NCBI GenBank assembly: GCA_964019135.1
Contig: OZ025258.1
Coordinates: forward strand, 30,870,186 to 30,934,185
Direction: 5' to 3'
Source of the DNA: Arenicola marina
Taxonomy: Eukaryota; Annelida; Polychaeta; Arenicolidae
Length of the DNA: 64,000 nucleotides
Made by a program: the position numbers and the translations under genes. Positions 4,076-51,800 of this stretch are shown here, in pieces. How positions within the stretch are numbered: the first letter of the stretch is position 1; each line of letters starts with the position of its first letter. The notes beneath the pieces were generated by a model. It was not told where the DNA came from, did not search any database, and saw nothing but the letters and a program-made list of their open reading frames with translations.

Positions 4076-4145
4076 TCGATAACGGTGTGCATACCCACGT
4101 AGAGCGCCCCAACCGCGATGTCGGCCTCGCCCGTCGGCAATGTGC

Positions 4146-4456
4146 GAGATGGCCGTGTCCAACTCGTACCAGGCCCCGCGAGATGGCCGTGCTCAACTCG
4201 TACCAGGCCCCGCGAGATGGCCGTGCCCAACTCGTACCAGGCCCCGCGAGATGGCCTTGCCCAACTCGTACCAGGCCCCGCGAGATGGCCGTGCCCAACT
4301 CGTACCAGGCCCCGCGAGATGGCCTTGCCCAACTCGTACCAGGCCCCGCGAGATGGCCTTGCCCAACTCGTACCAGGCCCCGCGAGATGGCCTTTCCCAA
4401 CTCGTACCAGGCCCCGCGAGATGGCCTTGCCCAACTCGTACCAGGCCCCGCGAGAT
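4146..4456. repeat. 34-bp minisatellite, about 9 copies
   Basis: Units containing GAGATGGCC and CCAACTCGTACCAGGCC repeat every 34 bp with very few differences (mainly GTG, TTG or TTT after GGCC). Because 34 is not a multiple of three and the unit lacks stops, several frames on both strands stay open. Those ORFs are by-products of the repeat. The array starts about 70 bp after the stop codon at 4075, so it is probably in that gene's 3' untranslated region. Confidence 0.92.
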
Positions 4457-8842: not shown

Positions 8843-11800
8843 TCACAGCTTAGCCTTCCGCAGACCGCCGACGACTGGCTTGTCCAGCCAGTCTCTCCAC
8901 CAATCAGGACGCTGCAGCGCCTTGGGGCCCTGGATCATGGCGCTGTACAGATTCTTGTAGATCTGGCAACACAAGCAAACAGAGATCTTTAGGGTGTGTC
9001 AGTAGAGACCGCTCTCTTACCGCAATACGTATTCACGTCGAGAGACTCATTCACAAGAGACTCAACAGATCACGGAGATGAGGTGAGCTACAGCAATGAA
9101 GGCACGAAGATGTATTATGTCCAGGTGCAAGAACAAATACCTCCTGCGGTTCGCTGTCTCAAAGTTACACTCCACCCTACGCTGGTACATATCGCAATCT
9201 GACCAGGCCAAGGTCTATAACTTCCTTCAACACATGATGTGGTCCCACGATTTGCAGAAAAGTGGCGGTTGATTCTCCATGGAAACATCATGCATGGAAG
9301 CTGTCGGCCTCAGCACATATTCTATTCCTATATATTAATCTCGTACTGGCTCACATATCCATTTCGCACCTAGATGATCATCCACCCCATGCCCTCCCCC
9401 CACTGCCCTTTATCCCGGAAACAGCGGCCCTTCTTTCAGGGTCGGTCGCCAAACCCAACCCCCAACACCGCCTCGCTCCTCTAGTGTCTCACCTCGCCGT
9501 CAGAGGCGCCGATAGGAGAGTTGAGGATGAAGTCTGGCGGCGCCATGGCGTCCACCAAGGACACAGCGTCGTCCTTCAGTTCGCCGCACAGATCCAAGAT
9601 GGTGGATCGCACGTAGTCAGCCGGCTCGCTGCCCCGGAAGTAGCCGCCTGCGAGTGAAAAAGGGAAAACACGTAAGTCTTGCGCCATCAAAGAAAACGCA
9701 CAACATGGTGTAAAAACGAGCAAGTTTATACCATATTTTGTTCTTCCATCCAACATAAGTTGGTTGGTTGTATATTCAGGACGCTTTAATAAATTTTGGT
9801 CCCTTCCATCATAAGTAGTTTTCGTATGATATAAATACGTCGCATTACAATTATCAACCTTTGCTGATTCATTCTCTCATTCATTAATTCCATTGAAATT
9901 CCATAAACGTAGCTAGATTTTATGTCCATTCGCACCCAAGCAGTCTGTGAAGGTATTCCAACCTGCTTGACTTTTGCTATTATTCTTCACATATAGGAGT
10001 AACAACGGCAATGAAGGCCACAAGAAATATTCTCTGATATTTGAAGGTTGCCACATAGCAGCCAGCCGGGACGGACCTTGGTAGAGGGAGGCCATGTGTT
10101 TCTCCAGGCTCCAGAGGCCGTAGAGAAGCCCCATCCTTCGGAGTGCCGGGCTCAGCTCGGCGGGTCCACCCTCGTCCAGGAAATCCGCATATCTTTGCAT
10201 GGCGGTATGCTGAAAGCGTTCACAGGCGGACGTGGCATTAAATATCCAAAGTCTGCTATAGAACTTGTATGAATGAAACACGCATAACTATGACCCATTG
10301 AGCTTCAAAGACGTAATTCTTTATGTTGCACTGATCAAAGTGATGCATTGTTTTTGCCAATTGCACATATCTTATTTAAACAACAATGCGAGAGTTCATA
10401 TTGACTCATTTTCATGCTAGACCAGTGACAAAATTCGGCAATTGTAAAAACGACAGATTTAATTACCTCGCTGTGGACGTACCCCAACATAGGCCAGCGA
10501 CAGAGTTCGGCAATTGTCAAGACGGCAGATTAAATTCCTCGATGTAGACGTACTTTTCTATATAGGCCATAGGGATAGTTCGGCCATTGTCAACACAACA
10601 AATTCAATTCCCTCGCAGCAGACGTTTGTCAATATAGGCTAGAGAGTTCGGCAATTGTCAAGACGACAGATTCAATTCCTTGTTGTAAACGTACCTCAAT
10701 ATAGGCCAGCGACAGCGTTCGGCAGTTGTAGACCTGGCTGTCGTTGCGGGCGGTGAAGGCGTCCTTGCCTGACGCCAGCTGATCCTTGTACCGAGTGGCA
10801 CTAGCCACCAGAAGGTGAGCCACCAACCACTGGTAGGCGTTCAGGATGACTGCAATAACAACATGGTGAAGAAAAGGTCCAGTAAACCATATCTACAATT
10901 GTATCAGTATTGGCTTCTTCCATCCATTGTTGGTCTTTTGGGTTGTGGGTCAGGCGTTCCATAGACAGAGCTTAATCTGCCAAAATCGCGTCCAGTGAAA
11001 ACATATTATATCAGCTATACCAAGAAAATCTGAATAATCGCACTGGTTTTTAAAGTCATGGGCATTTGTTGAGAACTAATACATGAAAACAGTACATTAT
11101 TGCAAATAATAAACATAACGTTTCTTCTTGCAATTACACGAATGTGTATTCCACTAAACCAATAACATCCATACAAGAGGAAAAGTTCCGAAAAAATAAA
11201 GCTGCATACGACCACAAAGCATGAAGAGCTATAGGCTTGGCGCTCCAGACTCACACTGGAAGTCCCTGCACTGCCCCTTGTTCTGGATCTGGCACGTCAT
11301 GCCTTGAAGCGACTCCAGATCATTGAGGAAGTTGACGCTCTCGAATGGCGACTCGATCACATCCCCTGGAAGCGACACAGAGAACGCCAGGGAACGCCGT
11401 GATAAGTGTGCACAGGGAGACATCTACACGTCACACAGAAACGATATAATAGAAGATAGCGCCGGTATTCACTGCTGTAACACGCTCAAATGTTCAGGAT
11501 ATGGTCTAACTCTCCCGATAAGTAGAACTATTCGAGTCACCGTTCTCCTTAAACAGCTTCCCAACATGTAACCTCATGTACACCCCACCCCCACCCCCTC
11601 CCCGGTCTCGTCCTCACCCCGAGTCTTGGCCTGGTACAGTCCCAACAGGTAGTTGCTGGTTTGCTGCAGCAGGACATTGTTATCGCCCTCGTACGTGCAG
11701 TTGGCGTCGTGGTCACCACGGAGATCACCCAGACGGTTCACTGAAATACGATATGTACAATCTTCCTAACTGCAGAAATGCGCAGACAATACCGATAACA

Positions 11801-12861
11801 AGTTATAGCGTGCAAAAACATTGTATCCATTTGTAAGACTGGGACGGAATAGTGGCAACATGATGTACCGTTAGCAGACATTGTTTTTGTTAGATAGTCT
11901 AGTGTGATATCATGTCAAAAATATATCGTACATCAGACAGGACATGAGGGGTTGGTGTATTAGGCCATCTTTGTGAACATGAAGGCTACATAGGGCCAAC
12001 ACACCTCCCGTGTACTGAAATTAAAAACTTCTTCGTGTGAAGCTGTTTGTTCTTCATTTTGTTAAGAGACATGAAATACGACTGACCACGGTCACGCCCA
12101 CTGACCTCTGAAGTATCCGTGACCTCCGCATGCCTCGCGACACTCCTGAATGGCGTCCCTAGCAACCCATCCGGCCAGCGGCTTGGAGGCCGAGGACAGC
12201 GCGTGGATCTCGGGTCCCATGTCCGCCTGCAAGGTTGCGGGGGGGGGGGTAGGCGGACGGGGAGGGGCAGATGACAGGTTACTTAATGGTGTTAAACACA
12301 AATGGCGCCGTCTGCATGGTTCGTGGGCAGAGCTAAGGTAATAAAATAAAATAAATGAAATTATTTTTATTAGTGCGCCATCGTCTGCGCCCGGATACCT
12401 CATTCGTGCATGTGCTTATTACGAACGATCTATCCAAATAATGCTTGGCAGCGAGACATTACAACAGCGTAGAAGCCTAATCGTAGTCGTGCTGGCATTA
12501 GACAGGTCAGGTTACCTTAACAAGCGTCCTCTATCTATAAAGCAATGCCGCTAAATTACATTTTACGCAGTTCGTTTCATTAACAACGTTGCCCCAGATT
12601 TTACCCTCGAAAAGGACGATTAACATATTCAGTGGTCCGAAAAACCTCGACAATGGAACACTCATGACACCAGTGACCGCAGCAATAACGTAAATATAAT
12701 ACACTTCCTGTCTATATGGCCGTCTCAGGCTGAGTTACCTGTCTGTCATCGCCAGTGTCAAACATCATTCCGACTCGGACCTCCAAGTAGTTATTGTAGA
12801 TGGTCTTGGAGAAGACCTCCAGCACGTACATCGCCGCCAGGTACGGAAACAGGCGCCATTG
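8843..12861 (-). CDS. ACOX3: ACOX3-like exons 8-15: catalytic and C-terminal domains
   Basis: Exon 8 begins [19 protein letters not shown]. Exon 9 holds [13 protein letters not shown] (about residues 432-444). Exon 10 holds [13 protein letters not shown], whose glutamate (about residue 465) matches the catalytic base of acyl-CoA oxidases. Exons 11-14 form the ACOX C-terminal domain, with [34 protein letters not shown] and LNSPIG. Exon 15 ends GGLRKAKL then TGA. Exon 12 is followed by a second splice-site-containing repeat array. The exon 13 acceptor is TTTCAG|CAT at 10209; the nearer-looking ATAGCAG at about 10255 would put a stop in frame. Confidence 0.95.
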
Positions 12862-15800
12862 CTGCAACAGGCATGACGTCCTCACCAAAGGGTCAAAGGT
12901 CAAATGTAAAATCAGGAATTTGTATATATTATATGTATTGTTATATATATGTATTTTTATATCTACTTATATGTATTTTTATACATACTTATATGTATTT
13001 TTATACATATTTATATGTATTTTTATAGATACTTATATGTATTTTTATACATACTTATATGTATTTTTATATAAATACTTATATTTCCAGGTATGGATTT
13101 TAATGTGTATCATATAAGTTAGGCTCACCATGCTTATATATATATTTCATAGAATGCAGCAGCTATATTTTCATGCGCTGAAGCTGGTACTCAGTGACTG
13201 GTCAATGCTGAACAAGGTACGATATGACTGAGGGACGGCTATACCTGGAGCTGGTACTCGGTGACTGGCCAATGCTGAACAAGGTACGATATGACTGGGT
13301 GACGGCTATACCTGGAGCTGGTACTCGGTGACTGGTCAATGCTGAACAAGGTACGATATGACTGGGGGACGGCTATACCTGGAGCTGGTACTCGGTGACT
13401 GGTCAATGCTGAACAAGGTACGATATGACTGGGGGACGGCTATACCTGGAGCTGGTACTCGGTGACTGGCCAATGCTGAACAAGGTAAGATATGACTGGG
13501 GGACGGCTATACCTGGAGCTGGTACTCGGTGACTGGCCCATGCTGAACAAGGTACGATATGACTGGGGGACGGCTATACCTGGGGCTGGTACTCGGTGAC
13601 TGGCCAATGCTGAACAAGGTACGATATGACTGGGGGACGGCTATACCTGGGGCTGGTACTCGGTGACTGGCCATTGCTGAACAAGGTACGATATGACTGG
13701 GTGACGGCTATACCTGGAGCTGGTACTCGGTGACTGGCCAATGCTGAACAAGGTACGATATGACTGGGGGACGGCTATACCTGGGGCTGGTACTCGGTGA
13801 CTGGCCAATGCTGAACAAGGTACGATATGACTGGGGGACGGCTATACCTGGAGCTGGTACTCGGTGACTGGTCATTGCTGAACAAGGTACGATATGACTG
13901 GGAGACGGCTATACCTGGAGCTGGTACTCGGTGACTGGCCAATGCTGAACAAGGTACGATATGACTGGGGGACGGCTATACCTGGAGCTGGTATTCGGTG
14001 ACTGGTCAATGCTGAACAAGGTACGATATGACTGGGGGACGGCTATACCTGGGGCTGGTACTCGGTGACTGGTCAATGCTGAACAAGGTACGATATGACT
14101 GGGGGACGGCTATACCTGGGGCTGGTACTCGGTGACTGGTCAATGCTGAACAAGGTACGATATGACTGGGGGACGGCTATACCTGAAGCTGGTACTCGGT
14201 GACTGGTCAATGCTGAACAAGGTACGATATGACTGGGAGACGGCTATACCTGGAGCTGGTACTCGGTGACTGGCCAATGCTGAACAAGGTACGATATGAC
14301 TGGGGGACGGCTATACCTGGAGCTGGTATTCGGTGACTGGTCAATGCTGAACAAGGTACGATATGACTGGGGGACGGCTATACCTGGGGCTGGTACTCGG
14401 TGACTGGTCAATGCTGAACAAGGTACGATATGACTGGGGGACGGCTATACCTGGGGCTGGTACTCGGTGACTGGTCAATGCTGAACAAGGTACGATATGA
14501 CTGGGGGACGGCTATACCTGAAGCTGGTACTCGGTGACTGGTCAATGCTGAACAAGGTACGATATGACTGGGGGACGGCTATACCTGGGGCTGGTACTCG
14601 GTGACTGGCCAATGCTGAACAAGGTACGATATGACTGGGGGACGGCTATACCTGGGGCTGGTACTCGGTGACTGGCCATTGCTGAACAAGGTACGATATG
14701 ACTGGGTGACGGCTATACCTGGAGCTGGTACTCGGTGACTGGCCAATGCTGAACAAGGTACGATATGACTGGGGGACGGCTATACCTGGGGCTGGTACTC
14801 GGTGACTGGCCAATGCTGAACAAGGTACGATATGACTGGGGGACGGCTATACCTGGAGCTGGTACTCGGTGACTGGTCATTGCTGAACAAGGTACGATAT
14901 GACTGGGAGACGGCTATACCTGGAGCTGGTACTCGGTGACTGGCCAATGCTGAACAAGGTACGATATGACTGGAGGACGGCTATACCTGGAGCTGGTATT
15001 CGGTGACTGGTCAATGCTGAACAAGGTACGATATGACTGGGGGACGGCTATACCTGGGGCTGGTACTCGGTGACTGGTCAATGCTGAACAAGGTACGATA
15101 TGACTGGGGGACGGCTATACCTGGGGCTGGTACTCGGTGACTGGTCAATGCTGAACAAGGTACGATATGACTGGGGGACGGCTATACCTGAAGCTGGTAC
15201 TCGGTGACTGGCCAATGCTGAACAAGGTACGATATGACTGGGGGACGGCTATACCTGGAGCTGGTATTCGGTGACTGGTCAATGCTGAACAAGGTACGAT
15301 ATGACTGGGGGACGGCTATACCTGGGGCTGGTACTCGGTGACTGGTCAATGCTGAACAAGGTACGATATGACTGGGGGACGGCTATACCTGGGGCTGGTA
15401 CTCGGTGACTGGTCAATGCTGAACAAGGTACGATATGACTGGGGGACGGCTATACCTGAAGCTGGTACTCGGTGACTGGTCAATGCTGAACAAGGTACGA
15501 TATGACTGGGGGACGGCTATACCTGGGGCTGGTACTCGGTGACTGGTCAATGCTGAACAAGGTACGATATGACTGGGGGACGGCTATACCTGAAGCTGGT
15601 ACTCGGTGACTGGTCAATGCTGAACAAGGTACGATATGACTGGGTGACGGCTATACCTGGAGCTGGTATTCGGTGACTGGTCAATGCTGAACAAGGTACG
15701 ATATGACTGGGGGACGGCTATACCTGAAGCTGGTACTCGGTGACTGGTCAATGCTGAACAAGGTACGATATGACTGGGGGACGGCTATAACTGGAGCTGG

Positions 15801-18800
15801 TACTCGGTGACTGGTCAATGCTGAACAAGGTACGATATGACTCGGAGACGGCTATACCTGGAGCTGGTACTCGGTGACTGGTCAATGCTGAACAAGGTAC
15901 GATATGACTGGGTGACGGCTATACCTGGGGCTGGTACTCGGTGACTGGCCAATGCTGAACAAGGTACGATATGACTGGGTGACGGCTATACCTGGAGCTG
16001 GTACTCGGTGACTGGTCAATGCTGAACAAGGTACGATATGACTGGGGGACGGCTATACCTGAAGCTGGTACTCGGTGACTGGTCAATGCTGAACAAGGTA
16101 CGATATGACTGGGGGACGGCTATACCTGAAGCTGGTACTCGGTGACTGGTCATTGCTGAACAAGGTACGATATGACTGGGTGACGGCTATACCTGGAGCT
16201 GGTACTCGGTGACTGGTCAATGCCGAGCAAGGTACGATATGACAGGGTGACGGCTATACCTGGAGCTGGTACTCGGTAACTGGCCAGTGCTGAACAAGGT
16301 ACGATATGACTGGGGGACGGCTATGCCTGGAGCTGGTACTCGGTAACTGGCCAATGCTGAACAAGGTACGATATGACTGGGGGACGGCTATGCCTGGAGC
16401 TGGTACTCGGTAACTGGCCAATGCCGAACAAGGTACGATATGACTGGGGGACGAGTATACCTGAAGCTGGTACTCGGTGACTGGTCAATGCTGAACAAGG
16501 TACGATATGACTGGGGGACGGCTATACCTGGATCTGGTACTCGGTGACTGGTCAATGCTGAACAAGGTACGATATGACTGGGGGACGGCTATACCTGGGG
16601 CTGGTACTCGGTGACTGGCCATTGCTGAACAAGGTACGATATGACTGGGTGACGGCTATACCTGGAGCTGGTACTCGGTGACTGGCCAATGCTGAACAAG
16701 GTACGATATGACTGGGGGACGGCTATACCTGGGGCTGGTACTCGGTGACTGGCCAATGCTGAACAAGGTACGATATGACTGGGGGACGGCTATACCTGGA
16801 GCTGGTACTCGGTGACTGGTCATTGCTGAACAAGGTACGATATGACTGGGAGACGGCTATACCTGGAGCTGGTACTCGGTGACTGGCCAATGCTGAACAA
16901 GGTACGATATGACTGGGGGACGGCTATACCTGGAGCTGGTATTCGGTGACTGGTCAATGCTGAACAAGGTACGATATGACTGGGGGACGGCTATACCTGG
17001 GGCTGGTACTCGGTGACTGGTCAATGCTGAACAAGGTACGATATGACTGGGGGACGGCTATACCTGGGGCTGGTACTCGGTGACTGGTCAATGCTGAACA
17101 AGGTACGATATGACTGGGGGACGGCTATACCTGAAGCTGGTACTCGGTGACTGGTCAATGCTGAACAAGGTACGATATGACTGGGAGACGGCTATACCTG
17201 GAGCTGGTACTCGGTGACTGGCCAATGCTGAACAAGGTACGATATGACTGGGGGACGGCTATACCTGGAGCTGGTATTCGGTGACTGGTCAATGCTGAAC
17301 AAGGTACGATATGACTGGGGGACGGCTATACCTGGGGCTGGTACTCGGTGACTGGTCAATGCTGAACAAGGTACGATATGACTGGGGGACGGCTATACCT
17401 GGGGCTGGTACTCGGTGACTGGTCAATGCTGAACAAGGTACGATATGACTGGGGGACGGCTATACCTGAAGCTGGTACTCGGTGACTGGTCAATGCTGAA
17501 CAAGGTACGATATGACTGGGGGACGGCTATACCTTGGGCTGGTACTCGGTGACTGGCCAATGCTGAACAAGGTACGATATGACTGGGGGACGGCTATACC
17601 TGGGGCTGGTACTCGGTGACTGGCCATTGCTGAACAAGGTACGATATGACTGGGTGACGGCTATACCTGGAGCTGGTACTCGGTGACTGGCCAATGCTGA
17701 ACAAGGTACGATATGACTGGGGGACGGCTATACCTGGGGCTGGTACTCGGTGACTGGCCAATGCTGAACAAGGTACGATATGACTGGGGGACGGCTATAC
17801 CTGGAGCTGGTACTCGGTGACTGGTCATTGCTGAACAAGGTACGATATGACTGGGAGACGGCTATACCTGGAGCTGGTACTCGGTGACTGGCCAATACTG
17901 AACAAGGTACGATATGACTGGGGGACGGCTATACCTGGAGCTGGTATTCGGTGACTGGTCAATGCTGAACAAGGTACGATATGACTGGGGGACGGCTATA
18001 CCTGGGGCTGGTACTCGGTGACTGGTCAATGCTGAACAAGGTACGATATGACTGGGGGACGGCTATACCTGGGGCTGGTACTCGGTGACTGGTCAATGCT
18101 GAACAAGGTACGATATGACTGGGGGACGGCTATACCTGAAGCTGGTACTCGGTGACTGGCCAATGCTGAACAAGGTACGATATGACTGGGGGACGGCTAT
18201 ACCTGGAGCTGGTATTCGGTGACTGGTCAATGCTGAACAAGGTACGATATGACTGGGGGACGGCTATACCTGGGGCTGGTACTCGGTGACTGGTCAATGC
18301 TGAACAAGGTACGATATGACTGGGGGACGGCTATACCTGGGGCTGGTACTCGGTGACTGGTCAATGCTGAACAAGGTACGATATGACTGGGGGACGGCTA
18401 TACCTGAAGCTGGTACTCGGTGACTGGTCAATGCTGAACAAGGTACGATATGACTGGGGGACGGCTATACCTGGGGCTGGTACTCGGTGACTGGTCAATG
18501 CTGAACAAGGTACGATATGACTGGGGGACGGCTATACCTGAAGCTGGTACTCGGTGACTGGTCAATGCTGAACAAGGTACGATATGACTGGGTGACGGCT
18601 ATACCTGGAGCTGGTATTCGGTGACTGGTCAATGCTGAACAAGGTACGATATGACTGGGGGACGGCTATACCTGAAGCTGGTACTCGGTGACTGGTCAAT
18701 GCTGAACAAGGTACGATATGACTGGGGGACGGCTATAACTGGAGCTGGTACTCGGTGACTGGTCAATGCTGAACAAGGTACGATATGACTCGGAGACGGC

Positions 18801-21800
18801 TATACCTGGAGCTGGTACTCGGTGACTGGTCAATGCTGAACAAGGTACGATATGACTGGGTGACGGCTATACCTGGGGCTGGTACTCGGTGACTGGCCAA
18901 TGCTGAACAAGGTACGATATGACTGGGTGACGGCTATACCTGGAGCTGGTACTCGGTGACTGGTCAATGCTGAACAAGGTACGATATGACTGGGGGACGG
19001 CTATACCTGAAGCTGGTACTCGGTGACTGGTCAATGCTGAACAAGGTACGATATGACTGGGGGACGGCTATACCTGAAGCTGGTACTCGGTGACTGGTCA
19101 TTGCTGAACAAGGTACGATATGACTGGGTGACGGCTATACCTGGAGCTGGTACTCGGTGACTGGTCAATGCCGAGCAAGGTACGATATGACAGGGTGACG
19201 GCTATACCTGGAGCTGGTACTCGGTAACTGGCCAGTGCTGAACAAGGTACGATATGACTGGGGGACGGCTATGCCTGGAGCTGGTACTCGGTAACTGGCC
19301 AATGCTGAACAAGGTACGATATGACTGGGGGACGGCTATGCCTGGAGCTGGTACTCGGTAACTGGCCAATGCTGAACAAGGTACGATATGACTGGGGGAC
19401 GAGTATACCTGAAGCTGGTACTCGGTGACTGGTCAATGCTGAACAAGGTACGATATGACTGGGGGACGGCTATACCTGGATCTGGTACTCGGTGACTGGT
19501 CAATGCTGAACAAGGTACGATATGACTGGGGGACGGCTATACCTGGGGCTGGTACTCGGTGACTGGTCAATGCTGAACAAGGTACGATATGACTGGGGGA
19601 CGGCTATACCTGGGGCTGGTACTCGGTGACTGGTCAATGCTGAACAAGGTACGATATGACTGGGGGACGGCTATACCTGAAGCTGGTACTCGGTGACTGG
19701 TCAATGCTGAACAAGGTACGATATGACTGGGAGACGGCTATACCTGGAGCTGGTACTCGGTGACTGGCCAATGCTGAACAAGGTACGATATGACTGGGGG
19801 ACGGCTATACCTGGAGCTGGTATTCGGTGACTGGTCAATGCTGAACAAGGTACGATATGACTGGGGGACGGCTATACCTGGGGCTGGTACTCGGTGACTG
19901 GTCAATGCTGAACAAGGTACGATATGACTGGGGGACGGCTATACCTGGGGCTGGTACTCGGTGACTGGTCAATGCTGAACAAGGTACGATATGACTGGGG
20001 GACGGCTATACCTGAAGCTGGTACTCGGTGACTGGTCAATGCTGAACAAGGTACGATATGACTGGGGGACGGCTATACCTTGGGCTGGTACTCGGTGACT
20101 GGCCAATGCTGAACAAGGTACGATATGACTGGGGGACGGCTATACCTGGGGCTGGTACTCGGTGACTGGCCATTGCTGAACAAGGTACGATATGACTGGG
20201 TGACGGCTATACCTGGAGCTGGTACTCGGTGACTGGCCAATGCTGAACAAGGTACGATATGACTGGGGGACGGCTATACCTGGGGCTGGTACTCGGTGAC
20301 TGGCCAATGCTGAACAAGGTACGATATGACTGGGGGACGGCTATACCTGGAGCTGGTACTCGGTGACTGGTCATTGCTGAACAAGGTACGATATGACTGG
20401 GAGACGGCTATACCTGGAGCTGGTACTCGGTGACTGGCCAATACTGAACAAGGTACGATATGACTGGGGGACGGCTATACCTGGAGCTGGTATTCGGTGA
20501 CTGGTCAATGCTGAACAAGGTACGATATGACTGGGGGACGGCTATACCTGGGGCTGGTACTCGGTGACTGGTCAATGCTGAACAAGGTACGATATGACTG
20601 GGGGACGGCTATACCTGGGGCTGGTACTCGGTGACTGGTCAATGCTGAACAAGGTACGATATGACTGGGGGACGGCTATACCTGAAGCTGGTACTCGGTG
20701 ACTGGCCAATGCTGAACAAGGTACGATATGACTGGGGGACGGCTATACCTGGAGCTGGTATTCGGTGACTGGTCAATGCTGAACAAGGTACGATATGACT
20801 GGGGGACGGCTATACCTGGGGCTGGTACTCGGTGACTGGTCAATGCTGAACAAGGTACGATATGACTGGGGGACGGCTATACCTGGGGCTGGTACTCGGT
20901 GACTGGTCAATGCTGAACAAGGTACGATATGACTGGGGGACGGCTATACCTGAAGCTGGTACTCGGTGACTGGTCAATGCTGAACAAGGTACGATATGAC
21001 TGGGGGACGGCTATACCTGGGGCTGGTACTCGGTGACTGGTCAATGCTGAACAAGGTACGATATGACTGGGGGACGGCTATACCTGAAGCTGGTACTCGG
21101 TGACTGGTCAATGCTGAACAAGGTACGATATGACTGGGTGACGGCTATACCTGGAGCTGGTATTCGGTGACTGGTCAATGCTGAACAAGGTACGATATGA
21201 CTGGGGGACGGCTATACCTGAAGCTGGTACTCGGTGACTGGTCAATGCTGAACAAGGTACGATATGACTGGGGGACGGCTATAACTGGAGCTGGTACTCG
21301 GTGACTGGTCAATGCTGAACAAGGTACGATATGACTCGGAGACGGCTATACCTGGAGCTGGTACTCGGTGACTGGTCAATGCTGAACAAGGTACGATATG
21401 ACTGGGTGACGGCTATACCTGGGGCTGGTACTCGGTGACTGGCCAATGCTGAACAAGGTACGATATGACTGGGTGACGGCTATACCTGGAGCTGGTACTC
21501 GGTGACTGGTCAATGCTGAACAAGGTACGATATGACTGGGGGACGGCTATACCTGAAGCTGGTACTCGGTGACTGGTCAATGCTGAACAAGGTACGATAT
21601 GACTGGGGGACGGCTATACCTGAAGCTGGTACTCGGTGACTGGTCATTGCTGAACAAGGTACGATATGACTGGGTGACGGCTATACCTGGAGCTGGTACT
21701 CGGTGACTGGTCAATGCCGAGCAAGGTACGATATGACAGGGTGACGGCTATACCTGGAGCTGGTACTCGGTAACTGGCCAGTGCTGAACAAGGTACGATA

Positions 21801-24800
21801 TGACTGGGGGACGGCTATGCCTGGAGCTGGTACTCGGTAACTGGCCAATGCTGAACAAGGTACGATATGACTGGGGGACGGCTATGCCTGGAGCTGGTAC
21901 TCGGTAACTGGCCAATGCTGAACAAGGTACGATATGACTGGGGGACGAGTATACCTGAAGCTGGTACTCGGTGACTGGTCAATGCTGAACAAGGTACGAT
22001 ATGACTGGGGGACGGCTATACCTGGATCTGGTACTCGGTGACTGGTCAATGCTGAACAAGGTACGATATGACTGGGGGACGGCTATACCTGGGGCTGGTA
22101 CTCGGTAACTGGCCAATGCCGAACAAGGTACGATATGACTGGGGGACGAGTATACCTGAAGCTGGTACTCGGTGACTGGTCAATGCTGAACAAGGTACGA
22201 TATGACTGGGGGACGGCTATACCTGGATCTGGTACTCGGTGACTGGTCAATGCTGAACAAGGTACGATATGACTGGGGGACGGCTATAACTGGAGCTGGT
22301 ACTCGGTGACTGGTCAATGCTGAACAAGGTACGATATGCCTGGGGGACGGCTATACCTGGAGCTGGTACTCGGTGACTGGTCAATGCTGAACAAGGTACG
22401 ATATGACTGGGGGACGGCTATACCTGGAGCTGGTACTCGGTGACTGGCCAGTGCTGAACAAGGTACGATATGACTGGGGGACGGCTATACCTGGAGCTGG
22501 TATTCGATGACCGGCATCTCCTGGCCGCCCTCGACGGGGCCGAACTGTTTGCGGGCCGCCGAGTAGCGGATGGCGATGGTCAGACACGTCTTCAGGTTGG
22601 CGACCCCCATGCTGGTGATTCCGACCCGGCCGCCAGAGAGCGCTCCGAGACTGGCCCCATGACGCTTCCGGGGATCCTGCAAATTGTCACGTGACGCGTT
22701 CGTGAAATGTCGAGACGTCCCTGGGTGTTGAGCATGACTAAATACTGTTTGGCACATCGCCATTGCTGAAACGTTGTTCTTACACGTGTAGGTTTAATGA
22801 ATGCAATTGAGGCTAGAATGTGAAATGCAGATGTAAGTTTGAAGCAATGATCATGAGTTGAAGGCTGTCTCGGTACAATCGTTTACCATTGAATAGATGT
22901 TGTGTCAACTTGCTTTAGTCCAGCAGCAGTGTTGATGCGTGTGACAAATCGATCACGTGCCTACCTGGTATGGCGTGACGTACTTGCCGTCGGCAGTGAC
23001 GTCACCAGTTTTGTTCATCAGCTGATCCTTGGGAATACGAACTTTGTGAAAGGCCACAAATCTGCAAAGCAAATACATGCCATTTAGTACCAGTGTTAAT
23101 ATAAGATTTCAACAGATATAGAGCAAATGTCTGCTTTAAGCAGTAACATACATCCCTGCTAACTTTCTTTTTTGCTCGAACTAATAGTAAACCCTTGTCC
23201 ACCCCACCCCTTTCCCTTGGCCACCCCACCTATAGCCACCCCGACCCACCCGTTGTCCAGGGCGTTGAGGCCGGTCTTCTCGCCCATGTCGCCGACGAAG
23301 ACCCCCGGGAGGGCCATGAGGGTCTGGGGGTCCCGGAGCGGGACGATGAAGGAGTGGAGGCCGTGGCAGCGGCCGTCTGGGGTGTACAGCTGGGCGTACA
23401 CCACGGCGTGGGTGGCCATCTTACCCAGGTTGCCCACCCAGATCTTGGTGGCCTCGAAGTCTGGGGTGTTGATGACAAACTCCTGCGAACAGTCACAGTG
23501 TGTAAACCGCATGTCATCCATTTCAGCAGTCACACCATTCAAAGTCAAACAAACCATAAGCAAATATTTTATCTCAAACAATGATGGCAATAAAATATAT
23601 ATGTATTGGAATTTAATGTCATTACTTTTGAAGAAAGTAAATAATATCGACTAGCCGATAATCCAATTGTACTTTAATAATTATATTACTGGTAATAATG
23701 ATAATTTTGTCAAATTGTCTGTTTCTGCCAGCGGGACATTAGCATTAGTAATGTCATTTTTGTGGTAATGCCAAGAACGGTGTTCCACATAGACTAAATC
23801 TATATTTTTCCCGTTTTATACATTATAAGATGATAGTTACATCAGAATTACCTGGGTCTCCGGATCAAATCTGGCCTCTGTCCTCATGGCTTTACTGTTG
23901 CTGCCGTGGCTCAGCTCAGTCAGGGCAAAGCAACCGTACACCTAGGAGACACGAGAGCTATCTTAAACAATTGTTAACACGTCAAAGTTAGCTAAAATAA
24001 CGCAAAACAAGTAAAGAAAACACGCGTATTTTAACACCAAGATTAAACAAGACATAATATTAGCTCGCCACGTTACAACATTTAAAAAACCCCTCAACCT
24101 CATCTTGAGACGTTAATTAATTAATTAAATTTTCACTTGACATAATGCAAAACTTTCATTTGACATAATGCAAAACTTTCATTTGACATAATGCAAAAGC
24201 GTAAGTCGACAAAAACAATACACGTTCAGGTGACATACATGCAGCTTTCACGTGACATAATATTGCATTTGAACGTGCCAATATTACATGTAACGTGAAA
24301 GAACACTGAACCTTCCGATGACTCCCGGGCCGTGATAGCTCTACATTGCTACATTACAGCCTCCCCATACCTCCATGTTGTCACATTGGTCGGCAAACTT
24401 GTTCAGTCTGTGAGTCGGGTTCCGACCGACGTTGTTGCGGATGATATTCGTGAACATCTAAAGACAAAAGACGCTTACAACATGATTGTATGTTATCATT
24501 GTTCCAATGAACGAAAAAAGAATATTTATATATTGGTCGTTGAATTGATGAACATATGTTGCAAAACTCATTTAACTATGTTGTATATTCATAATGACCA
24601 TTGACATATTGATACAACACTGTTACAAAATCTAGGTTTATCACGTTATAGATAGTGAGACAGCTAGAGTCGTACAGGCGACTCTATAAATAGTTCGAGG
24701 GTTAGTTTTTTAGACGCGTAACTAGACACGTGCGCTGGATATCTCGTGATCTGGCCACACGTGCGATGAACCTTGGAAACCACTTCAGCATAATCTAAAC

Positions 24801-26718
24801 ACACTCGGAAGCGACGGCCTCTTGCATGCGTACAATACCAGATCATTAAGCGCTGCTTCACATTTTTCGATACAAGATAAATGTATTCATTTACTACATT
24901 AAGCATCAAAGAACACTTTAAATTTTTAGCCGTTAGCTTGTCCAGCGATGTTAGATGACACAGACACAAGTTATCAAATGGCATAAATGCAGAACACTAG
25001 TCGTTAGATGACATAGACGCAGAACAAAAGTTCTTAGATGGCACAGATGCAGGACAAGAGTTCGAAGCGGACATAGAAGCAAGTTGACGACATAGACGTT
25101 GAACACAAGCTGGTGGACGACACAACCCCAGGACACATAAGTTCCGGCATTTGCCGTCACTTACTCCAGGTACAAGTATCTGACCACGCCTGGCATTTGC
25201 TGTCACTTCCTCTACGTACAAGTATCTGACTACGCCTGATCACGCCTCCTCGGACGAGTATAAACCAGGGTTCATACAGGCAAGGTTCCATCAAATTCAA
25301 GCTTTTTAAGGCAAGTACTAGAAAAATTGAAGGACTTTCCAAGGGCAATTTTTATTTTCTCTGGTCTATTTTAAGCATACAAATTGCAAAACTTGGGACT
25401 AAATTTTATACATAAAATTTTGATATGCGGAAATAAGTGTGCACGTTTATTTACTACCAGCCAACAGCATATATTGGAGTTAACAACTTAACTTTTATTA
25501 ATTGCTACTTCTTCAATTCAGCCAGCTTTTGTTTGATTTTTTCTTGGGTCTTTGCCAGTGCCCAGTCCAGTTTGAAATCAAGCACTTTTCATTGTAACTG
25601 CCTTATTTTCAAACAAGCAAATTCAAGTACATTGGATCGACATCAAGGCCCATTTCTGTTTTTATGACCTTTTCCAGGCATCAGTCAAAATTCAAGCACT
25701 TTTTAAGCCTGTGCACACCCTGATAAATGCTTGATAACAGACAGATCATTATTATTACTAATTAAAGACATAAGGTGACGAGGTGGGACATGGGCCAGCA
25801 TGCACACTCCCAGCCTTTACTCGCCTCCCAGTGCAGCAGGTACTTGGTGGTCAGTGCCCAGTCATACATGCCCAGGATACTGACAAATTCTCTCATCATG
25901 AGAGGATTGGCCATGATCTCATCCCATGTCAGGAAGTTGTACTCAAATAGCCGCTTGGTGCGCTGATAGGTGGCCTGTCGCTGTTCTTCTAGTGGGAGAG
26001 TGTGCAACGGTCGCTGAAATACTGGGTCACTCTCCATTGTCTTCCATACATGGTGCTGTACAAAAAGATAAAGTTACACCATTTTGACATTTTTCCTCAG
26101 GGCATTAACTTATGTAATGTAATTGCCTAATTTATGATTTAGAACAAAAGATAGTCACATGCATTTCCTGCAAATATGACTACTCAGATTATAGTCCATA
26201 TTGTTAATAGTATTCATCACAAAATTTCCTGATTGATAATGGTCAACAAACAAACAAACAGCAAAATATCATTAATCATCTATAAAACAAGTCACATTTA
26301 CCATCAACAACTATGTTCTACATTAGATGTGAAGATACAAGCCTATTATAATCTCTGCTGGTAGCATCTTATTACTTATTAGTACTTATTTTAATATAAT
26401 TACACCATTTGTCTATAATATTCACTGGTACTTTCAATAAAATATTTTTCCCTATTCATATAAATTATAACATATATAATGATCTCTGCAGGTAGTATCT
26501 TATCTTTTATCTGTGTCATTACAAGACTTATATATATTATTTACCTTAAATAGAACAGTTTGTTCCCCATCCATATGCATCTTCATTTTCTTCCAGTTGA
26601 AGCTTGCTTTCTGTCTGTATGTGTCTAATGGTCCAGTTGGAAAATCTTGTAAGATCTCTGCCAGTGATGGGTGAGAATCCATTGCTTTGACAGTTTCCTG
26701 TACATCTGTAGCTGCCAT
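8843..26718 (-). CDS. ACOX3: Peroxisomal acyl-CoA oxidase, ACOX3-like (complete, 15 coding exons)
   Basis: The exons join into an open 712-residue protein; human ACOX3 is about 700. From 5' to 3' they are 26718-26545, 26055-25825, 24457-24371, 23941-23852, 23482-23250, 23061-22965, 22676-22491, 12861-12739, 12226-12106, 11740-11618, 11365-11255, 10849-10695, 10209-10077, 9647-9493 and 8962-8843. All phases agree and all introns are GT-AG except the second, which is GC-AG. The ATG has a good context (AAGATGG). The family oxidises acyl-CoA to trans-2-enoyl-CoA with FAD and passes electrons to oxygen, giving peroxide; ACOX3 prefers 2-methyl-branched substrates such as pristanoyl-CoA. The C-terminal AKL is a PTS1, placing the enzyme in the peroxisome. 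I aligned it by eye to human ACOX3 from memory. Assignment to ACOX is near certain, to subtype 3 likely. Confidence 0.95.
9880..10020 (-). other. Intron 13 of the ACOX3-like gene
   Basis: This is part of the 429-bp intron between exons 14 (9493-9647) and 13 (10077-10209). It is AT-rich and I see no repeat or element in it. Confidence 0.35.
10412..10730. repeat. Degenerate 68-73-bp tandem array containing exon 12 end and splice donor
   Basis: The motif TTCGGC recurs at 10434, 10506, 10579, 10647 and 10718, and the last copy lies inside exon 12. On the gene strand each unit repeats a version of the exon 12 end (TGCCGAACGCTGTCGCTGG, then CCTATATTGAG), the donor GTACGT, and about 35 bp of intron ending in CTTGACAATTG. 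The donor GT survives in two of the intronic copies and is lost in the others. Copies differ by roughly 15-25 percent, so the array is old. It shows the same architecture as the 67-bp array in this gene. Confidence 0.82.
11945..12016 (-). repeat. Old SINE 3' end, same family as the copy at 31123-31312
   Basis: The stretch with TTGGTGTATTAGGCCATCT and GGGCCAACACACCTCCCG matches the body of the SINE at 31123-31312 with scattered substitutions. It lies in the intron between exons 10 and 9 of the ACOX3-like gene. No tRNA-like head is preserved here. Confidence 0.6.
12944..13090. repeat. 22-bp AT-rich minisatellite, 6-7 copies
   Basis: Units of the form ACTTATATGTATTTTTATAC repeat every 22 bp with few changes. 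The array lies in the same intron as the 67-bp array, between exon 8 and that array, and is unrelated to it in sequence. Confidence 0.85.
13177..22505. repeat. 67-bp minisatellite, about 139 copies, each carrying a 5' splice site
   Basis: The anchor GGCTATACC recurs from 13237 to 22483, exactly 138 x 67 bp with no net indel, after a partial first copy. The array fills most of the 9.6-kb intron between ACOX3-like exons 7 and 8. On the gene strand each unit reads as the end of exon 7 (GTCACCGAGTACCAGCTCCAG with one base to spare), the donor GTATAGCC, and intron sequence to TTGTTCAG. Almost all units keep CAG|GT. A few have CAG|GC (for example near 16320) or CAG|TT (near 15788, 18735, 21281, 22290). 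Long blocks inside the array are repeated at 44- and 38-unit spacing. Confidence 0.97.
22491..23061 (-). CDS. ACOX3: ACOX3-like exons 6-7, ending at the 67-bp array
   Basis: Exon 6 (23061-22965) encodes [13 protein letters not shown] and [10 protein letters not shown]. Exon 7 (22676-22491) encodes [12 protein letters not shown] and AARKQFGP, both standard in the C-terminal alpha domain, and ends [10 protein letters not shown] at a phase-0 donor CAG|GTATAG. That donor is the first unit of the giant minisatellite. The last 25-30 bp of exon 7 are recognisable, with a few substitutions, in every repeat unit beyond it. Confidence 0.95.
23250..26718 (-). CDS. ACOX3: ACOX3-like exons 1-5: N-terminal and middle domains
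   Basis: Exon 1 (58 codons) opens with a variable leader and then [10 protein letters not shown], matching the FPRGPLDAYR of ACOX3. Exon 2 (77 codons) carries the acyl-CoA oxidase N-terminal domain through ILGMYD and TTKYLLH. Exon 3 (29 codons) is the least conserved and is about four residues longer than the human equivalent. Exon 4 supplies [12 protein letters not shown] (about residues 168-179), the flavin-contacting motif of the middle beta domain. Exon 5 continues with [13 protein letters not shown] and [13 protein letters not shown] and ends at ALDNG. No stop or frame problem is seen. Introns 2-4 hold only small tandem repeats and AT-rich sequence. Confidence 0.95.
24130..24270. repeat. 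23-bp tandem repeat, three copies plus related flanks
   Basis: GACATAATGCAAAACTTTCA is repeated three times with a 23-bp period, followed by looser relatives (GACATAATATTGCATTTGA). It lies in intron 3 of the ACOX3-like gene. Confidence 0.7.
24955..25240. repeat. Degenerate about 30-bp repeats followed by a duplicated about 48-bp unit
   Basis: Between 24955 and 25140 a unit like TAGATGACATAGACGCAGAA recurs about five times with heavy divergence. From 25144 to 25240 a unit starting GGCATTTGCCGTCACTT and ending TATCTGACCACGCCT occurs twice. Both lie in intron 2 of the ACOX3-like gene. Confidence 0.6.
25823..25824 (-). other. GC-AG splice donor of ACOX3-like intron 2
   Basis: Exon 2 ends TGGGAG and the intron begins GCGAGT, which fits the consensus except for C at the second position. 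A GT four bases further in (GTAAAG) would shift the frame against exon 3, which begins in phase 0 at TTTAG|ATGTTC. The GC donor is therefore the one that works. Confidence 0.75.
26245..26544 (-). other. Intron 1 of the ACOX3-like gene
   Basis: This AT-rich part of the 489-bp first intron between the coding exons shows no gene or element. The donor is AAG|GTAAAT at 26545. Confidence 0.4.
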
Positions 26719-32701: not shown

Positions 32702-35700
32702 TATTTTGGGAATGTAGACAGTCATAACGGCCAGTTCAGAACGCCTCGGTTCCCCCGTATGGGTGTCGGCAGTTCCTGGAACAGCCGACGGTTCTGTGTA
32801 GACTATCGTAAGCTTAACGATGTCACACGCAAGGACGCGTACCCCGTACCCTTAATCTCCGACACGCTGGATGCCTTGACTGGGGCTCAGTGGTTTTGTA
32901 CCCTCGACCTGGCCTCTGGCTACTGGCAAGTAGAGATGGACGAGCGTGATAAGGAGAAGACCGCCTTCATCACCCGTCAAGGTCTCTTCCAGTGGAAGGT
33001 GATGAGCTTCGGGCTGTGCAACGCGCCGGCCACTTTTGAGAGGCTGATGGAGCTAGTTCTCCGTGGTCTCTGCTGGCGTAGTTGCCTGGTGTATCTCGAT
33101 GACGTCATCGTCTTCGGGAAGACCTTTGAGGAGACGTTGAGCCGTCTCACCATTGTGTGGGACAGATTCAGAGAGGCAGGCCTGAGGATGAAGGTCTCGA
33201 AATGTCGACTCTTCCAGACCGAGGTGCTGTACCTAGGTCACGTGGTTTCGCGTCACGGCATCTCGACGGACCCTACGAAGGTGTCGGCGGTGCGTGATTG
33301 GCCAATACCCGCGACCGTCAAAGAGGTGCGGAGTTTTCTGGGACTGGCCTCATACTACCGGCGATTCATACCTGGGTTCGCTCAGGTCGCTGGCCCTATG
33401 ACGGCAATGACCCGGAAGAACGTGCCCTTTGTCTGGGATGACGACAAGGAGAGGGCCTTTCGAGCCCTTCAGACAGCCCTCTGTGAAGCTCCGATCCTCG
33501 GGTATCCCACGAGAGAAGACCGGTTCGTGCTGTACAGCGATGCGAGCGGCGATGCCATGGGCTGTGTGCTGGCTCAGCAGCAGGAGGGTGGTGAAAAGGT
33601 CATCGCGTATGTGTCCAAGACCTTCAGTCGCACTCAGAGGCGCTACTGCACCACTCACCGAGAGCTGCTGGCCGTGGTGACGTTTGTGAAGCAATTCCGT
33701 CACTACCTGTGGGGTCGGCCGTTCACCGTTGTGACAGACCATGCGTCACTCACGTGGCTCTTGAACTTCCGGGAGGCGGAAAACATGGTTGCTCGCTGAT
33801 TGGCTACGTTGGGCACTTACGATTTCAAAGTGATCCACAGGCCCGGCTCGAAGATCGGCCATGCCGATGCCCTCTCCCGGAAGGTGACGCGTCCCTGTAA
33901 GCGCATGGAGTGTGAAGACTGCCTGCCGCTCAGGGGGCGCGTGGAGAGAAAGGAAGACGAGGGGACCCCAGGGCTAGTCCAGGGGGCGCAGGCTGTCCTC
34001 ACTGGATCAGTGGAAGGACAGTCTGACGAGGTGAAGACGATAGCCTTTACAGCCTTAACAGCTCCGGTACAGGTCGGTGACCCTGTTGTCGCTGGTGATA
34101 CTGACGGTAAGCAGACGGAAGGGAAGGTGGCTACCGCCATGGTGCGTGAGCTGCGATGGGCCCCGGATGTGGCATTGACGGATATCCGTCGCTGGCAGAG
34201 CGAGGATGAGAGCATAGAGTGTATGCTCAGCCACTTAAAGACTCGGGTCCATAAACCCCCGTTTGCCGAGGTCAGGAGCCAGAGTGGGATGACGAAGTGC
34301 CTCTGGCAGCAGTGGGACAACCTGGTCATGGAGGATGACATCCTGTACCGGAAGAAGAAAGCCAGCTGTGACACTGGGGTGGTGCAACAGTTGGTAGTGC
34401 CGCTGGGGTTGTGAGTGCCTCCAAGACATGATCTTCACGTATGCACGATTGCATCCGCAGGGTTGGGAAGATCACCTCCCGTACGCCTTGTGTGCCTATC
34501 GGTCGTCCGAGCATCGGAGCACGAAGGTCTCCCCTTACCGACTGCTATTCGGTCGTGAGATAACCCTCCCACTCGACCGCCAAGTTGAAGGTCCCCCACG
34601 CGAGCGCGCTCCCGCATGCGTGACCGCGCTCGCGTCCGCGTCCGCGTCCGCGCCCGCATGCGTGACCGCCTACGGAGAGTGGTTGCGTGATGCGATGGAG
34701 ATTGGCCACCACATTGCCCGTCGGGAGAGCTGCAAGGCAGCGGTCCGGCAGAAGACCGGCTACGACATGAGGGCAACCCCAGTGAACTTCCCGGTAGGAA
34801 GTTGGGTGTGGCGCTACTGTACAGCCACAGCCAAAATCAATGGGCAGGCCCATTCCTAGTGGTGAGGAGACCATCGGCCGTCAATGTGTCCATCCAGCGC
34901 TCCGCTGTCGACAGGACCATTGTGGAGCACGTGGACCACCTGAAGGAGTATGTGGAGGACCCGGACGATCCCTTGGTTAGTTGGTTGACACCACCTGCGA
35001 TGCAGGAGCCGGCTGCGCAGGAGAGCGAGGCCACTGAGACCCCCGCAGCCGCCGAGGCACCAGGGTTGCCCCCGGACGGTAGTGACGAGGAGGGGGTAGA
35101 CGAGAGACCTGACCAAACGTCCCACCAGTCAGACGCTTCCAACGTACCGGAAGTACTGGTGGGGACGCCCAACACGGAAGAGAGCGCCCCAAGTCCACGC
35201 CGTGGCCAGCGAGTAAGGCGGCCACCAGTGAGGCTGGATTGGTAAGTGACCCAGTTGATACAGCGATATGGCAGAAGCCATCGAGCGGCCATGGAAGGAG
35301 TCAGCGCTGCTGTGGGAAAGGTGTGAGGTTGGTAGGCCCAGCCGGCCGATTGGCCGGAGTCGTCACTCTGGTTGGTCGTGCTGAGGAGACTGTAGGATGG
35401 ACCTGATGCCCTACAGTAGGCTGGTCCGGGGTGGCAGTGAACTAGGCAGCGGTGTCTCAGAAGCAACGGGTGATACATCGCCCATGCAGATCCCTGTTCC
35501 GCAGCCGGACGCAGGGCGGTGTCACTCCCCGCTTGTGAGGAAGAGAGCTCAGTCACGCTGTAGCTGGACGGCCTCAGCTCTCTTGACGAGGAGGGTTGTT
35601 GCCCCCAGCACGGTAGTATGATGAGTAGTAGCCGTCTGTTGATGTTTATTGCCACGCCAGCCCGTTAATCACACAACTACCAGCAGTCAGCGCAGAGGAG

Positions 35701-48828: not shown

Positions 48829-51800
48829 GTAAATTAGTTGTTTTGAGTATCGGGCGCCTCAACGACAGTCACTGTAATTCGTATAATAGCCATAAGTAAA
48901 TAATAAGTCATGTCTCGTAGCAAAATATTATTTCGCCGTAATAGTGTAATGTTGCGCAGTACCTTAAGGTTACAAAAACACAAGGTAAATATGTCCTTTG
49001 AATATAGTCACAAACTTTACTTTCGTGCGCAGTGAAGGGATCTTTATCATGCACAATATATTGCAAGCAGGACGCCATCAGATAATAATTATCGACATCC
49101 GATTTACTCATTGTTATTGATCATTGCACTTTGCATCATTACATCCGGCACCATGTGATAATACGCAGCTATTTGGTCATGTTTAATTAACACGTTGATT
49201 ATTATACCCATCAGGCGTCAACATGGAAACTGGGGCAATGCAGACAGTCATGAATGGAAATGAAACCTACAACTGCTCCATGTCGGCATCGGAACCGGAG
49301 CGCATGAGCAATGCGTCAGGATCGGCGGCACACACCGGAAGTCGAGCAAAATCGGTGCTTCCTAACATCAAGAAAAGACAGAAAAATGAACAAAGCAAGA
49401 AACAAGCAGAGAAGGAAAGTGCCTCGCTGCGGGGGGCGGTCTTGAAGGACCCGGATGGGTCTGACGTCAGCAAGGAGCATGCGAAAACCACGGAGCTGTT
49501 GGTGGTTCGATCTATGAACGAAGCTTGGCCCAATAGTAACATTTACCATGGCGCAGAAGTCTTGTGTATGTTGCGCGAGTTACTGAAGTTACGCATGCGC
49601 CGTGACGTGAGGTTGTCGCCGTTCAACCCAAAGGACTTTTATTCTCCCATTCGGCGTGACTCCGTGCGTGCAACCAGAACCCGTCGGGAACAGGATGAAG
49701 ACAACGATGATGACGACGATGATGCTGACACTCGCGACGAGGATTATCAGTTCGAAAAGGATCACGCAGGCGACAGTGATACGGGTGATAGCGGCGACGA
49801 TGATGTTGGCAAATATGGCAGCGTGGCTACAGATAACACAGTCGTACATGAAGTCACTAGCGCCAGTGATGACACTGCCATGGCACAGACTCGTGAGGAA
49901 AGTCGCCGGTCTGAGGACATGAACTGGACCCTCCCGATGTTGTACAACAACGTACTGGAACCACCAAACCAGTCCGGGGTATTTGTCCGTAAGAACAGAA
50001 GCAGCGACGGAGGGCAGTCCGAGGTCGACTCCACGGCCGATACCTCCACAATCACGGACGCAGGGGGCCCTCCCAGCCGGAAGAAACTCAAGTACAATGG
50101 CGGTGATAAAGCCTGCGGCCGGCGGAATCACAAGGATGAGACGGACGAGAAGTTGGTGGACGAGGAGGAGGAGGATGGAACGGACGATGAGGGAATTGAG
50201 CTCGAGGAGAGGGAAGACAGTCTAGAGCAGACGCGAACTCAATCCAGCTCCAGGACGTCTAAAGACGACTCCAACCCGTGGCACCAGTTTTCGTTCGCGG
50301 AGGGCGAAAAGGCGCCTACGCAGGGAGGGCGAGAGGCGGGCCACTCTTACCCGCCGACCGCGACCCTTAAGTCCAAGCGCGGCGATCAGTACCGCGGTCG
50401 AAGTATGATTGCCGAATTACGGAGGATGCGGATTGCGAGGGGGATGCATGTAGGCTTTCCCTGGTCGCCGGACGCTGGCGATCAGGAGTTGCGAGAATTC
50501 TTCTTGTACTGCTCACAACTGTGGCAGGGGACGCTCACCTCAGTCAGCAAGGTCAACATGGTGTCAAAGTTGCTCTTCTGGCTCCAGAAGGGAAAGAATC
50601 CAGACGGCGAGGATCCGAAAGCCGCGGATCCAAAGGCGTTAGCCGATGTCATGGGAGTGATGCAGTTCTATCACATCCTGCACTCCGATCTAGATGGTTC
50701 TGGTCGTGGCTTCGGACTTCAGGCGGCATCGATGAAGAACGAGCTACTCGCTGTCAAGTGGTACATACGATTCCTGCAAAGCACACGCTCTTATCGCACC
50801 ACAGACGTGACCTTCCACAACGCTCTTATCCGTTTGAACGCACAACTGGACGACATTAGGGCTGTGAACCAAAAACTGCTGAAGCAACAGAATCAGGTGA
50901 AACGGACTGAGCGCCAGGAGGCCGGACTGGTCATCACTCCGACCATTGCGGACGAGGTCCGGAATTGTGAAGCGATCCAGAAGCAACTGGCGGAGATAAA
51001 GAAAAAGTACGGTAACCCGAAAGGTTCACGCTGTGACGTCCGCCAGGATTTCATCTTCTTTACGCGCTTCCTGATAGACCACCTGGCAGTAAAGCATGCC
51101 TGCAGGAGTAGTGTAATCTGCGGTATGACCTACGGAGAGTTCTTGGCCTGCCGAGCCTCTGACGTCACCGCTGACCACCGCCTCCTCAAGGTCAAAGATC
51201 ACAAGACATCGGGCATGGGATCGTACGACTTGACGCTCGACAGCGAAGACTACAGCTTGCTCAGTTTGTATTCCAAGAAGTTTCGTCATTGGGACGACCC
51301 CAACGATAAGGAACGCGGCACTTATAAGTTCTTCCGTCGCTGGCGCTCGATGAGGCCGTACGATCACCCATGTGAAGAGATTCACCAGTTCAGGCGTCAG
51401 TACGGCCTCACGCGCGTTACCCCTTCGGACATGAGAATTATGGTGGAGGGGCTAGCGTGCTTCCAGGGCGTAGGAGATGAGGCGGCCAATTACTTGCACC
51501 ATAGCCAAAAGACCGCTGAGTTGCACTACCGGGCGCAAACCAAAACTGCGCGCAGCCTGAGATCCGGAGTGACCATGTCCAACCTGACCCGTGAATACCG
51601 TGGGCTGGAGCAGGAGCCGGTGCCCGATGTGGATGAACTGTTGGGCCTAAGGAAGGCGATGCTAGCGGATAACGTGGAAGAGGGTAGCGGCAGTCATGGT
51701 CCGGTTGGAGATGACTCTCCACCAAAGTCTCTCCAACCCGCCGGCGCCTTAAAAACCCCGCGTGTGGGTTTCCGCAATCTACAAACCACCACCGGGCAGG

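Follow-up and report, generated by a model that had tools for sequence, protein, structure and literature searches.

An ACOX3-type gene of an annelid carries in intron 7 a long minisatellite built on its own 5' splice site

Minisatellites whose repeat unit spans an exon-intron border have been described in amphioxus as "mirage" minisatellites, in globin genes and in Adh3, which is cited in the same source (PMC3087553), as well as in PGBD5 and troponin C (PMC3902484). Tandem duplication has also been proposed as a source of new introns (the Rogers model), from human internal tandem repeats (PMC2812944) and from potato RdRp (PMC4974935), and minisatellite clusters are described in intron 1 of an earthworm metallothionein gene (PMC12783039). 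Here we analysed a 64-kb window (the whole stretch of DNA under study), which lies within a 43.1-Mb contig of the 867-Mb assembly GCA_964019135.1 of Arenicola marina. The window contains an ACOX3-type acyl-CoA oxidase gene, and about 9.3 of the 9.6 kb of its intron 7 are filled by a minisatellite that repeats the end of exon 7 together with its 5' splice site, or donor.

ACOX3 exons were placed by hand at splice-like sites so that one open frame results. The predicted protein scored 172 bits with the Pfam domain ACOX and 164 bits with ACOX_C_alpha1, and it is 52-63% identical to the 120 relatives listed, many of which are named peroxisomal acyl-CoA oxidase 3. The end of exon 7 is fixed by homology, with E-Y at positions -5/-4 and Q/QWRL at the junction in 120 of the 120 listed relatives (here and below, a slash marks the splice junction), and no gap opens in the alignment with them where exon 7 meets exon 8. 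Intron 7 measures 9,629 nt, from GT at 22490-22489 to AG at 12863-12862, while the median of the 14 ACOX3 introns is 429 nt. Intron 2 of the same gene has a GC donor, GAG/GCGAGT, at window positions 25823-25824.

A scan of the gene strand found 139 donor positions, namely the real donor and 138 extra copies, with a spacing of exactly 67 nt in all 138 intervals. On the side of exon 8, at position 13178, the array ends in a truncated exon-end copy, ...TACCAGCTTCAG, which is followed by other intron sequence. The donor 9-mer of the true site, CAG/GTATAG, is common to 123 of the 139 positions, itself counted; the others read CAG/GCATAG (6), CAG/TTATAG (4), CAG/GTATAC (4) and AAG/GTATAG (2). GT is thus retained in 129 of them and GC is present in 6 more. 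A DNA search of the assembly with the 67-mer gave 139 matches, every one at the ACOX3 locus. When the end of exon 7 was compared with the unit consensus, 21 of 25 nt were identical in the register ending at the junction (binomial p = 4e-9), and no better-matching register was found anywhere in exon 7. Three mismatches lie inside the match, two of them synonymous, and the fourth is at its outermost base (codons read by eye). Local alignment of donor 7 with its own intron scored 65, whereas none of 100 simple shuffles exceeded 23. The original prediction of about 139 tandem 67-bp copies of exon end plus donor, with the true donor at 22490 as the outermost unit, therefore agrees with the donor scan and the exon placement, provided that the real donor is counted, and the comparison with homologues, which it named as a way to refute it, leaves the exon end where it had been put. 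Of the 25-30 bp of exon sequence said to be copied, only the lower figure holds, since the match covers 25 nt and nothing longer.

A second, decayed array covers the donor of exon 12. Alignment of the exon end with three array copies gave a mean column identity of 82%, and the self-alignment score of this donor was 57, with a maximum of 22 in 100 simple shuffles. Each of the 14 donors and 14 acceptors of ACOX3 was aligned with its own intron, over at most 1.5 kb, and only donors 7 and 12 exceeded the shuffles. Judged by its sequence, the exon 12 array is older than the intron 7 array. Over the genome, junction-spanning repeats were confirmed at 10 donors and one acceptor in seven loci, ACOX3 included (Table 1), the test beyond ACOX3 being self-alignment against 200 shuffles. 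All 15 control junctions (4 donors and 11 acceptors) failed the self-alignment test; for three of them the sequence available for comparison was shorter than 300 nt. Neither the second ACOX3 array, nor the recurrence at other genes, nor the annelid host had been foreseen in the original prediction.

Table 1. Position and description of the arrays, exons and genes considered (window coordinates unless a locus is named)
Feature	Position	Strand	Description
ACOX3-type acyl-CoA oxidase gene	8843..26718	-	15 coding exons, 712 aa
Exon 7	22491..22676	-	186 nt, phase 0 end; provides the exon part of the repeat unit
True 5' splice site (GT) of intron 7	22489..22490	-	outermost of 139 donor positions
Donor-spanning minisatellite	13178..22511	-	Tandem Repeats Finder (TRF): period 67, 139.3 copies, 96% matches
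Units 7-44, first copy of 38-unit block (2546 bp)	19506..22051	-	string comparison with next block
Units 45-82, second copy of 38-unit block	16960..19505	-	100% identical over 2546 bp
Units 91-111 (21 units, 1407 bp)	15017..16423	-	repeat earlier units at lags 44 and 82
Exon 8	12739..12861	-	phase 0 end
Exon 12	10695..10849	-	ends ...SLAYIE; donor GTACGT from 10694
Decayed donor-spanning array, exon 12 donor	10434..10708	-	about 72 bp, about 4 copies; TRF 74-76% matches
Aldehyde dehydrogenase gene, C1			two donors and one acceptor; acceptor array period 41, 32 fuzzy matches including the real one
Aldehyde dehydrogenase gene, C12	L025:5314-5575		donor; 48-bp unit, 5.5 copies
Aldehyde dehydrogenase gene, C6			donor; 49-bp unit, 29 copies
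Aldehyde dehydrogenase gene, C8			donor; 43-bp unit, 72 copies
Myosin gene, C7			two donors; 10 and 12 copies, real ones counted
Myosin gene, C12			donor; 62-bp unit, at least 4 donors, nearly identical to exon

Joining of exons at the outermost site gave unbroken Pfam domains in both genes tried: the joined myosin head scored 259 bits over profile positions 30-184, and the joined aldehyde dehydrogenase 150 bits over 277-403. Two exons were assigned by their position in the gene, the FLERV exon of C1 and that of C6, whose 25-aa peptide has no Pfam match. The myosin stretch of C7 was examined because of a long open frame reported there. Two further, longer candidates have no visible border exon. 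In one, on C12, a 67-bp unit that encodes a peptide extends over at least 11.5 kb; with this peptide added to the next exon, the score for aldehyde dehydrogenase rose from 103 to 119 bits, and the match began at profile position 93 instead of 110. The other, in C3, comprises about 17 kb of a 68-bp unit with AAG/GTAAGC. Other candidates were rejected: the donor of the EQGPQ exon in L030 scored 19 against a shuffle maximum of 28; the L048 donor failed the shuffle test, its array being wholly intronic by eye, as are those of L049 and L058; in L018 a 24-nt repeat lies within the intron and the IDGK donor was negative. As separate observations, the 48-bp unit of the C12 aldehyde dehydrogenase gene keeps the frame open, unlike ACOX3, so that use of an inner donor there could lengthen the protein by blocks of 16 residues, and in C4 of G000 (367768-371306 and 380231-384073) repeated matches to the same myosin-head positions resemble the tandem alternative exons of muscle myosin.

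Taking together the observed structure, homology, block duplication, stop codons and recurrence, we think it highly probable that a border segment was tandemly duplicated, that the array grew on the intron side, that the outermost donor is the one spliced and that the process recurred at other sites. A 67-bp segment across the border of exon 7 and intron 7 (25 nt of exon and 42 nt of intron) would have been the seed. With the duplicate placed on the intron side, exon 7 and its own donor would have stayed intact and all copies would be intronic. Unequal exchange or slippage would have enlarged the array, lately in blocks of about 38-44 units, so that intron 7, which would otherwise measure about 300 nt, reached 9.6 kb. 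Purifying selection would have held the coding copy, and the copies in the intron would have drifted and become homogenised with one another. We hypothesize that the outermost donor is used because it alone adjoins a real exon and is transcribed first, the inner ones being silent or a source of early-stop transcripts, and that the same process acted on other splice sites of the genome. Such growth could be tolerated, since the outermost end of the exon is preserved.

The reading frame bears on this proposal. Use of an inner donor appends GTA TAG (Val-stop) to exon 7, so that the second codon added is a stop, in 138 of 138 cases, and 67 is not a multiple of 3. Consequently, only the outermost donor yields the ACOX3 enzyme. 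The earlier claim that all donors are phase 0 and usable at each step was right about the register and wrong about usability. As the 9-mer of the outermost donor is indistinguishable from 122 others, position would have to decide. Several points weigh against splicing at the outermost site and growth as proposed. RNA folding gave no sign of a special structure at the outermost donor (z 0.30). The true donor matches the consensus at 6 of 9 positions, the joint lowest value with two others among the 14 of the gene. Cell-free splicing with two equal strong donors often favours the intron-proximal one. Copy number may be affected by assembly, and what we propose about use of the outermost donor, the growth mechanism and its tolerance is drawn from genomic DNA.

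An improbable alternative is that inner donors are used, either to regulate ACOX3 by early-stop transcripts, or as micro-exons, or for excising the long intron in steps (recursive splicing). A splice from exon 7 to an inner CAG would recreate the same CAG/GTATAG donor, whose 9-mer is so widely shared, and in each inner unit an acceptor-like TTGTTCAG stands about 30 nt before the donor (consensus, by eye). However, no polypyrimidine tract was seen by eye ahead of the inner CAG, and although the resulting 10-codon micro-exon reads open in 47 of 138 units, a stop lies inside it in 91, besides the early stop that follows from every inner donor. Within the unit, donor positions have no extra conservation (4 of 9 variable, against 19 of 58 elsewhere, p = 0.48), and selection to retain inner donors was rejected, there being no sign of it in the variability of unit positions.

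The 138 units comprise 30 distinct types. The identical 38-unit blocks, together with the lags of 44 and 82 units (Table 1), indicate recent growth by large blocks. It appears very improbable that the assembly misrepresents a shorter array in its copy number or its blocks: the repetition of 2546 bp without one difference is what such an error might leave, but the unit types change from one part of the array to another and at its margins, the third copy of the block is not identical, and the same architecture is present at other loci with modest copy numbers. All 138 units carry ACC (Thr) where exon 7 has ATC (Ile), and the 120 listed relatives have at that residue Leu (96) or Ile (24), and Thr in none. 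The exon copy thus lies outside the homogenisation of the array, which has drifted as a group. An unrelated intronic minisatellite adjoining exon 7 by chance is hardly credible, for in spite of a genome rich in minisatellites, most of 60 arrays of which are without a strong donor, the exon match falls in the junction register and its mismatches are mostly synonymous or at the outermost base.

Ten 10-kb stretches, chosen by position before viewing, consisted to 33% of tandem repeat with a period of at least 10; two were wholly array and the other eight ranged from 1.8 to 27.7%. In a survey of exons not picked for arrays, ACOX3 excepted, array-bearing donors numbered 2 of 14 in ACOX3 (one being the focal finding), 0 of 13 in aldehyde dehydrogenase and 1 of 20 in myosin, and array-bearing acceptors 0 of 14, 1 of 13 and 0 of 20, respectively. 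The aldehyde dehydrogenase part took all 13 matches, with approximate exon ends and some near-identical gene copies. The myosin part took the first 22 of 77 matches by E-value, less two already fetched, with flanks of 200 bp on each side, in which longer units would be missed. Array-bearing junctions therefore amount to a few per cent, on small numbers. This rate is below the bulk share of tandem repeats, which is what one would expect were arrays to arise at any place and those that disrupt splicing to be eliminated by selection.

Among exactly placed junctions, arrays were more frequent at donors (10 of 28) than at acceptors (1 of 26, p = 0.005), many of these exons having been viewed because an array was noticed. 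The exon-blind survey did not demonstrate a donor preference (3 of 47 donors against 1 of 47 acceptors, p = 0.62, focal donor included). A donor-motif score of at least 5 was reached by 6 of the 60 arrays, a modest excess, since 1.7 would be predicted from DNA outside arrays; two of these six belong to a single array, and gene regions are over-represented. The focal array scored only 3.9, through a site on the opposite strand. It is tempting to propose, as a speculation that we consider possible but doubtful, that in this annelid lineage minisatellites arise by preference at splice junctions, for the most part at donors; that, as a result, a few per cent of all introns hold decoys resembling the true donor, tens to hundreds in each; and that the spliceosome picks by position and timing, not by sequence. 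Donor arrays would then be commoner because an additional donor lying downstream of the real one can be tolerated, while an additional acceptor lying upstream of the real acceptor would be the first to be encountered, and would be used.

Other repeats were also recorded. Very long minisatellites without a strong donor motif, with units of 27-31 bp and 148-323 copies, occupy L024:2371-8432, L026:1-4152 and L035:1-10000. In the window, a 34-bp tandem repeat lies at 4144-4456 (9.2 copies, 97% matches), reverse transcriptase and RNase H domains of a retroelement were found with Pfam at 32702-33796, and an open frame of about 1,030 codons at 49199-52294, with no Pfam match at E 0.01, is possibly part of a mobile element.

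An amphioxus origin of the DNA was ruled out by ACOX3 identities and COX1. Among the matches listed, ACOX3 is 61-63% identical to mussel, nemertean and annelid proteins, and 57% to that of Branchiostoma floridae. The COX1 sequence, from a contig of 15.9 kb, has its best match among the 120 listed in Pilargis wolfi, at 91% identity; other annelids follow at about 83-90%, and the gastropods listed come lower down. Mirages are known from cephalochordates, a distribution that is not part of their definition, and COX1 places the host of the present arrays in Annelida, Phyllodocida.

Donor choice among near-identical sites has usually been studied with two competing sites. ACOX3, with 123 donors of the same 9-mer in a row, offers a natural test of splice-site choice. 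One genome holds arrays of about 3 to 139 confirmed copies, of differing ages, at donors and at an acceptor, so that models based on proximity, exon definition or order of transcription can be tested with ordinary long-read cDNA. The proposed process would also be a route by which an intron swells from about 300 nt to nearly 10 kb with the protein untouched.

Among the known systems, the models of intron gain by tandem duplication resemble the worm arrays in that duplication copies or activates splice signals within a gene, as presented in PMC2812944; the accounts in PMC2812944 and PMC4974935 propose new introns, whereas in the worm an existing intron grows. Intron 1 of earthworm metallothionein likewise combines an annelid host with large intronic minisatellite arrays, although its repeat, as described in PMC12783039, is not said to cover a splice site. 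Among the matches listed from the open-licence PMC literature, we recognised no mirage case in annelids and no genome-wide one. The closest likeness, already suggested in the original prediction, is to the amphioxus mirages, and the comparison upholds it as far as the published accounts consulted describe them. As in Adh3, BflGb6, BflGb9, troponin C and PGBD5, the unit spans the exon-intron border, many but not all copies keep AG/GT signals, and the boundary of the cluster escapes homogenisation, a feature examined here for the intron 7 array only. Units measure 67 and about 72 bp in ACOX3 and from 32 to about 140 bp at the confirmed sites elsewhere, all within the 10-160 bp of mirages. Mirages are also described as leaving regular splicing undisturbed and as varying in length between haplotypes or tissues; for the worm the data cover, respectively, continuity of the protein across the outermost sites and a single locus in one assembly. 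The ACOX3 arrays are, on the architecture of their DNA, mirages of the amphioxus type, which would carry this architecture from cephalochordates to annelids. Besides their annelid host, they differ in scale, with 139 donors at one site where the described BflGb6 haplotypes have 6 and 3 units, and in their recurrence at seven loci of one genome, mostly at donor sites among the cases seen, which sets the worm apart from the amphioxus mirages as these sources present them.

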